From Thiogranum sp. (GTDB lineage Bacteria > Pseudomonadota > Gammaproteobacteria > DSM-19610): 35,054 nt of DNA. The stretch is from positions 1 through 35,054 of the forward strand of contig JASBSN010000135.1 in assembly GCA_030148915.1 (NCBI GenBank). Direction: 5' to 3'. How positions within the stretch are numbered: position 1 is the first letter of the stretch; each line of letters begins with the position of its first letter. Made by a program: the position numbers and the translations under genes. Under the pieces are notes generated by a model that was given only the letters and a program-made list of their open reading frames with translations, made no database searches and was not told the DNA's origin. This document shows positions 28,571 through 29,108 of this stretch, one piece after another.

Positions 28571-28611
28571 CCTAATACTTGACTTATTAAGTCAGGATAT
28601 ACTATATTAGG
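28571..28611 (+). promoter_or_regulatory. Promoter with overlapping palindromic operator for the SOR-like gene
   Basis: The region is much richer in A and T than the flanking genes. TTGACT at 28579-28584, an 18-base spacer and TATATT at 28603-28608 make a good sigma-70 promoter. The -35 overlaps a perfect palindrome TGACTTATTAAGTCA (28580-28594), and CCTAATA (28571-28577) is mirrored by TATTAGG (28605-28611). The TGACT...AGTCA half-sites recall Rrf2/IscR-type operators. A small leader hairpin AATGC-taag-GCATT lies at 28619-28632. Confidence 0.65.
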
Positions 28612-28655
28612 CTCTACTAATGCTAAGGCATTAAACCGACAAGAGGAGTCAAACC

Positions 28656-29108
28656 ATGGCCGGACTGATCCAGGATTTTCCGCACAATGGCATCGTTACT
28701 GTCAACCGCGTCATCCTCAAAGACGGTTACACCGTCGATGACCTCCAGGAGCGGGTAGCGATTCTCTGCGAGAACGTAAAGACTTACCATTCCGAGACCG
28801 GTTTTGTCGGCGGTTTTGTCTGCCTCAACAAGGGCGACGTCTCCAACGAGGGATCGACCATTGGCCAGGCAGTAGAGAGTGATCTTAAGGGAAAAGAAGC
28901 GCTTATCGTGACTTTCTGGAATACCTTTGACGATCACGAACGTTCGCACCGCAGCGACACTTTCCAGCCGCTGTTCGAGAGTGTGCTGGAGCTGTGCGAA
29001 AACGGTAATGAGGAAATCGCTTACGAAATGCTCTGGTCGGGCAAAGCCTATGACGCCGAAGAGGCCAGGGTGGCGCGCGAAGCCAAAGAAAAATACCAAG
29101 CCGGTTGA
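28656..29108 (+). CDS. Small SOR-like (half-length sulfur oxygenase reductase) protein
   Basis: The 150-residue protein resembles the first repeat of sulfur oxygenase reductase, an enzyme of about 310 residues that disproportionates sulfur with oxygen at a mononuclear iron. Compared from memory with Acidianus SOR, the iron ligands H86, H90 and E114 correspond to H94, H98 (T-F-W-N-T-F-D-D-H-E-R-S-H) and E120 (N-E-E-I-A-Y-E-M-L-W). The catalytic C31 corresponds to C38, just before T-G-F-V-G-G-F at about 48-54. C56 and C114 are the other cysteines. The second SOR repeat is missing, so a dimer would be needed to form the barrel. A strong AGAGGAG precedes the ATG. Alternatives are an ABM-type monooxygenase or another dimeric alpha-beta-barrel protein. 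It is monocistronic and lies between mtiP and csiV. Confidence 0.65.
   Translation: MAGLIQDFPHNGIVTVNRVILKDGYTVDDLQERVAILCENVKTYHSETGFVGGFVCLNKGDVSNEGSTIGQAVESDLKGKEALIVTFWNTFDDHERSHRSDTFQPLFESVLELCENGNEEIAYEMLWSGKAYDAEEARVAREAKEKYQAG

Follow-up and report, generated by a model that had tools for sequence, protein, structure and literature searches.

Sulfur oxygenase reductase (SOR; PF07682, NF047630; PDB 2cb2 and 6m35) is a protein of ~310 amino acids composed of two fused ferredoxin-like repeats. In the enzyme from Sulfurisphaera tokodaii, the iron ligands are H86, H90, and E114; alanine replacement of any of these residues, or of C31, left activity undetectable, while the C101A and C104A variants retained about a tenth; the same paper puts the cysteine at roughly 9-13 Å from the iron (PMC7398979). 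SOR assembles into a 24-mer cage. SOR is counted as rare in a Thioalkalivibrio gene inventory, where 3 of 75 strains encode it (PMC6382920). Two other groups of proteins are relevant to what follows. ABM monooxygenases (PF03992; e.g., SnoaB, 3kg0, and RslO4, 7bio) consist of a single ferredoxin-like repeat that dimerizes into a barrel. Persulfide dioxygenases convert sulfane sulfur and O2 to sulfite at a mononuclear iron held by two histidines and one acidic residue, and adopt a metallo-beta-lactamase fold. The ETHE1/SdoA-type persulfide dioxygenases (PMC6060420) are unrelated in sequence to the protein described here, so any likeness would be functional only.

The protein in question, which we call half-SOR, is encoded in a 35,054-nucleotide stretch of Thiogranum DNA (the window). 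At 150 amino acids and one repeat, it has half the length of SOR, and we found no description of half-length SORs in the open-access literature searched. A preliminary description based on the DNA sequence had pointed out an SOR-like residue pattern in this protein; the reading frame proved exact, and the residues are in place (Table 1). The motifs C38, G49-F50-V-G-G, T86-F-W88, H94-E-R-S-H98, and E120-I-A-Y123-E include three that are shared with SOR, namely T-x-W-x5-H-E-x-x-H, GF-x-G, and E-x-x-Y-E. Within the window, the gene is solitary. It is followed on the opposite strand by csiV and mfd (the CsiV family assignment was confirmed in one relative) and is preceded by genes that we take to be nagZ, a phosphoribosyltransferase gene, and a methylthioadenosine phosphorylase-like gene; no tRNA genes were found in the 35,054 nucleotides.

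Table 1. Features of the half-SOR gene and its upstream region (positions in the window)
Feature	Position	Strand	Basis
Palindrome CTTGACTTATTAAGTCAGG, candidate IscR-type operator overlapping the -35 hexamer	28578..28596	+	Kept in close relatives; similar sites at two IscR-family genes
Probable promoter, TTGACT-18 bp-TATATT	28579..28608	+	Sequence reading; kept in Thiogranum relatives
Ribosome-binding site, GAGGAG	28643..28648	+	Sequence, just 5' of the ATG
Half-SOR gene, clade A, 150 aa, one predicted ferredoxin-like repeat	28656..29108	+	Open reading frame (ATG start, 150 codons); profile match to SOR N-terminal repeat; AlphaFold2 pLDDT 89
C38 codon; pairs with SOR C31 in hhalign	28767..28769	+	Invariant, 150/150
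H94 codon; pairs with SOR iron ligand H86	28935..28937	+	Invariant, 150/150
H98 codon; pairs with SOR iron ligand H90	28947..28949	+	Invariant, 150/150
C114 codon; pairs in hhalign with C101, first Cys of SOR C-x2-C	28995..28997	+	148/150
E120 codon in E-x-x-Y-E; matched by motif to SOR iron ligand E114	29013..29015	+	Invariant, 150/150

The relationship to SOR emerges from profiles more than from the individual protein. As a single sequence, the window protein scored 14.5 bits against PF07682 (E = 0.016; cutoff, 25) and 15.8 bits against the NCBIfam SulOxRed model NF047630 (E = 0.0054; cutoff, 400), and a search of the PDB returned SOR first at E = 0.2. Because the SOR family cutoffs are not reached, we regard half-SOR as a relative of SOR and not as an SOR. 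With a profile built from 28 diverse relatives, the top PDB match was SOR 6m35 (E = 1.2e-5), followed by other SORs at ~0.003, all aligned on the N-terminal repeat; in the same search, IsdI and IsdG appeared at E = 0.35-0.54, IsdI at 0.35, over profile positions 74-110. PF07682 was matched by 18 of these 28 relatives (best E = 1.1e-4), and many of the sub-threshold PF07682 matches across 369 genomes belong to the half-SOR family, covering profile positions ~34-104. Sequence likeness to ABM monooxygenases is much weaker: PF03992 was matched weakly by six of the 28 relatives (best E = 0.032) and a Monooxy_af470-like model weakly by eight, whereas the window protein itself had no PF03992 match at E values of up to 10. 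Triosephosphate isomerases, which the PDB search with the family profile also returned (E ~0.005), were judged to be chance matches.

Profile-profile comparison by hhalign, using an alignment of eight full SORs, gave E = 9.2e-6 against whole SOR and E = 1.8e-6 (score 41.5) against the metal-binding N-terminal repeat. For the latter, 150 column shuffles scored 12.9 ± 2.9 with a maximum of 22.4, and a reversed profile scored 10.7. The C-terminal repeat scored 17.3, within the shuffle range, and was rejected as the nearer half, in agreement with the original proposal that only the first SOR repeat is present. Taken at the level of sequence, these results solidly place half-SOR as a homologue of the metal-binding repeat of SOR.

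Conservation of the presumed active site is strict. The preliminary description had named homologues lacking the site residues as evidence that would count against it, but C38, H94, H98, and E120 are retained in all 150 distinct homologues across both clades of the family (described below), and C114 in 148. The neighboring E119 is kept in 123 of the 150; clade B does not conserve it, in contrast to E120. The order and near-spacing read from the window protein were likewise borne out: the interval from tryptophan to the first histidine is +6 in both half-SOR and SOR, that between the histidines is +4 in both (H94-H98 and H86-H90), H98 to E120 spans 22 residues versus 24 in SOR, and C38 to H94 spans 56 versus 55. 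Five SOR residues appear to be kept in half-SOR, four of them paired by hhalign (C31/C38, H86/H94, H90/H98, and C101/C114) and the fifth, E114, corresponding to E120. C38 and C31 share a column in the hhalign alignment but are offset by one in that of HMMER. SOR C104, the other member of the C101/C104 pair, has no equivalent in the half-SOR family (hhalign, 150 homologues). By these alignments, half-SOR possesses the residues of the 2-His-1-Glu site of SOR, with H94 and H98 in register and E120 assigned by motif.

Structure prediction is consistent with this picture but less discriminating. The AlphaFold2 model of the window protein (mean confidence in Table 1) follows a beta-alpha-beta-beta-alpha-beta order, placing the two histidines in the helix that follows strand three and E120 in strand four; a clade B protein folded alone reached a pLDDT of 50. 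Foldseek and VIA-align grouped the model with dimeric alpha+beta-barrel proteins, and half-SOR is accordingly predicted to form the ferredoxin-like half of such a barrel, a superfamily in common with SOR and the kind of repeat from which ABM monooxygenases are built. The best structural matches were ABM oxygenases such as SnoaB (Z 13.9, 97 aligned residues); other ABM proteins lay at Z 11-14, matches of the SnoaB and RslO4 kind reached Z 13-14 over ~97-106 residues, and IsdG and IsdI, heme-degrading monooxygenases that have this fold in common, ranked high in the Foldseek search. SOR 2cb2 was matched at Z 11.2 with 126 residues aligned, which fall within SOR residues 122-301 and not on the N-terminal repeat. 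Given that ABM proteins outrank SOR and that the SOR match falls on this region, the fold by itself cannot single out SOR. Nor do we take the 122-301 alignment as homology to the C-terminal half, since the profile score for that repeat lies inside the shuffle range. The predicted fold is compatible with both SOR and ABM proteins, and it is the sequence evidence that decides for SOR.

A scan of genome contigs retrieved 371 relatives; the best 80 of these derive from Thiobacillus, Thioalkalivibrio, Thiogranum, Sedimenticola, Thiodiazotropha, Thiohalocapsa, Acidiferrobacterales, and others. The viral contigs and plasmids searched yielded no homologues. A quick tree divides the family with full support into clade A, whose members are ~67-92% identical to the window protein, and clade B, whose members are ~135 amino acids long and 31-41% identical to it. 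In an even sample of 369 Gammaproteobacteria genomes (the class sample), half-SOR occurs in 72, dsrA in 119, and soxB in 162, while the SOR model found 10 full SORs, true or divergent. Half-SOR is present in 63 of 119 dsrA-positive genomes versus 9 of 250 dsrA-negative genomes (Fisher p = 6e-28, ignoring phylogeny), which agrees with the sulfur-oxidizer setting first envisaged, and in none of the 194 class-sample genomes lacking both dsrA and soxB. These counts, uncorrected for phylogeny, span many families and both clades. All nine dsrA-negative carriers have a soxB match and five encode an sHdr-type HdrB homologue; in one of the nine the cluster is complete, with sox genes followed by hdrC1-B1-A-hyp-C2-B2, genes for two lipoate-binding proteins, and dsrE. 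Seven further carriers from a sample of the phylum Pseudomonadota, five of them from outside Gammaproteobacteria, all have dsrA. Clade A is kept even in three genomes of ~1 Mb that resemble reduced symbionts. Conversely, about half of the dsrA-positive genomes lack half-SOR, including a 99% complete genome of the same genus. Within the Pseudomonadota sampled, half-SOR follows cytoplasmic sulfur oxidation and is almost confined to sulfur-oxidizing bacteria. As a separate observation, four genomes encode divergent full-length SORs that are ~30% identical to standard SOR and score ~210 bits against PF07682; the three that were aligned retain the Cys, His, His, Glu site.

Most half-SOR copies are unlinked to sulfur genes. 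No conserved operon partner was identified, as the neighbors differ by lineage (MutL, LexA-like, CsiV-Mfd, and queuosine genes), and guilt by association consequently draws on a few loci. In one genome (L124:5517-14769), an otherwise standard dsr operon has a clade B gene inserted after dsrP and before dsrN, giving the run dsrC-M-K-L-J-O-P-[half-SOR]-N. Elsewhere, a clade B gene adjoins a DsrC gene, and another is near genes for a DsrE-like protein and an SQR-like pyridine-nucleotide-disulfide oxidoreductase; in Thioalkalivibrio, an ArsR-rhodanese gene is divergent from clade A half-SOR. A further clade A copy of the window genome itself (78% identical; contig C5, L083:12169-15538) sits directly upstream of DUF488-dsrA-dsrB, with a LysR gene adjoining the cluster, a linkage not found among the loci of the best 80 of 371 relatives. 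The dsrAB pair beside this paralogue is the second, divergent dsrAB of the genome, scoring 575 bits where the pair on contig C35 scores 658. Two further arrangements were each seen in two genomes. Genes for a DsrC-like protein of 130 amino acids (L025:1140-1529 and L113:4041-4433; 82% identical between the genomes) lie no more than 7 kb from half-SOR genes that belong to different clades, and clade B half-SOR directly follows ccoG/ccoH-like genes (FixG, FixH) at L125:5470-7945 and L131:5630-8102. The latter genes function in cbb3 oxidase assembly, and their proximity is a possible link to O2.

Upstream of the window gene, and kept there in Thiogranum relatives, is a palindrome that resembles the Escherichia coli IscR type 1 site. 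Near matches occur in the window genome upstream of iscR (contig C57) and, on contig C37, upstream of a second IscR-family gene with an iscU-like gene behind it. At two mismatches, the palindrome yields 42 matches versus 26 for the control; owing to this high background, only the exact match and the two IscR-family sites are of note. The sole other exact match is at C58:28263, between dxs-like and queD-like genes.

The explanation we favor, at a probability of about 50%, is that half-SOR is a dimeric, single-repeat homologue of SOR with an iron site and C38, oxidizing sulfane sulfur beside rDsr or sHdr. Two copies would probably pair to form the alpha+beta barrel, with each subunit holding one mononuclear non-heme iron through H94, H98, and E120. 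C38 would take up sulfane sulfur as a persulfide, and in the cytoplasm of rDsr/sHdr bacteria the enzyme may use O2 to oxidize, or to both oxidize and reduce, the sulfur of persulfides or polysulfides, providing a side route or safety valve alongside the main sulfur pathway. The homology, the four invariant residues, the predicted half-barrel fold, and the co-occurrence with rDsr/sHdr are results of this analysis; the dimer, the iron, the chemistry on persulfides, the use of O2, and the role in the cell are inferred. Half-SOR is a genuine homologue of the catalytic half of SOR and probably works in the same way. A full SOR iron-site and cysteine pattern at half length, in sulfur-oxidizer hosts, suggests that this may be an overlooked sulfur enzyme.

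Two other functional proposals are each rather unlikely. One is an ABM-type dimeric barrel working without the SOR site, that is, a cofactor-free or heme-binding (IsdG-like) oxygenase acting on an organic substrate, in which the SOR pattern would reflect common superfamily ancestry only. The leading structural matches and the scattered weak hits to PF03992 and the Monooxy_af470-like model fit such an enzyme. They are opposed by profile E values that put SOR more than four orders of magnitude ahead of IsdI, a gap that also led us to reject an IsdG-type heme enzyme as first choice, by four metal and cysteine positions that are invariant at their SOR places, and by the class sample, in which half-SOR occurs only with dsrA or soxB. 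We know of no H-x3-H...E site in ABM monooxygenases. The other proposal is a Dsr accessory, a chaperone or carrier handling siroheme or sulfur with no oxygenase chemistry, with C38 and C114 as sulfur carriers or the His/Glu set as ligand of a metal or siroheme. In its favor, the dsrN gene, beside which the clade B copy in the dsr operon lies, encodes a siroheme amidase, and the paralogue of the window genome directly precedes DUF488-dsrAB. Superfamily members are also known to bind heme (PMC4835899). Most copies nevertheless reside outside dsr operons, half of the dsrA-positive genomes do without half-SOR, and five of the nine dsrA-negative carriers have an sHdr-type HdrB, marking a pathway without siroheme.

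That the metal site senses O2, persulfide, or iron and does not turn over substrate is improbable. The candidate IscR-type operator in the window lineage and the divergent ArsR-rhodanese regulator genes of Thioalkalivibrio invite the idea, but a regulated gene need not be a regulator, and half-SOR has no DNA-binding or signaling domain and no conserved partner. We consider it more improbable still that the resemblance to SOR is due to chance. Single-sequence matches do remain under all curated cutoffs, and the profile search that found SOR also returned triosephosphate isomerases; against this, the hhalign score is far above those of the shuffles and the reversed profile, every SOR profile match falls on the same repeat and register, and the predicted fold is of the same superfamily.

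If the favored reading of half-SOR as a single-repeat, SOR-like oxygenase is correct and the protein is active, many rDsr/sHdr bacteria would hold an O2-dependent sulfane-sulfur enzyme missing from gene inventories (e.g., PMC6382920), and the accounting of electrons and oxygen in sulfur oxidation would change. Because the two clades are defined by sequence and there are four residues to test, the claim can be checked directly with one small protein. A broader version, which we entertain tentatively and think doubtful as a whole, holds both that half-SORs are widespread, unrecognized cytoplasmic iron sulfur (persulfide) oxygenases of rDsr and sHdr oxidizers, including those with reduced genomes of ~1 Mb, and that they represent the single-repeat ancestor of two-repeat SOR, which would have arisen when the repeat was duplicated and its second copy lost the site. 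An active half-SOR would also be a possible single-repeat form from which SOR evolution could have set out.
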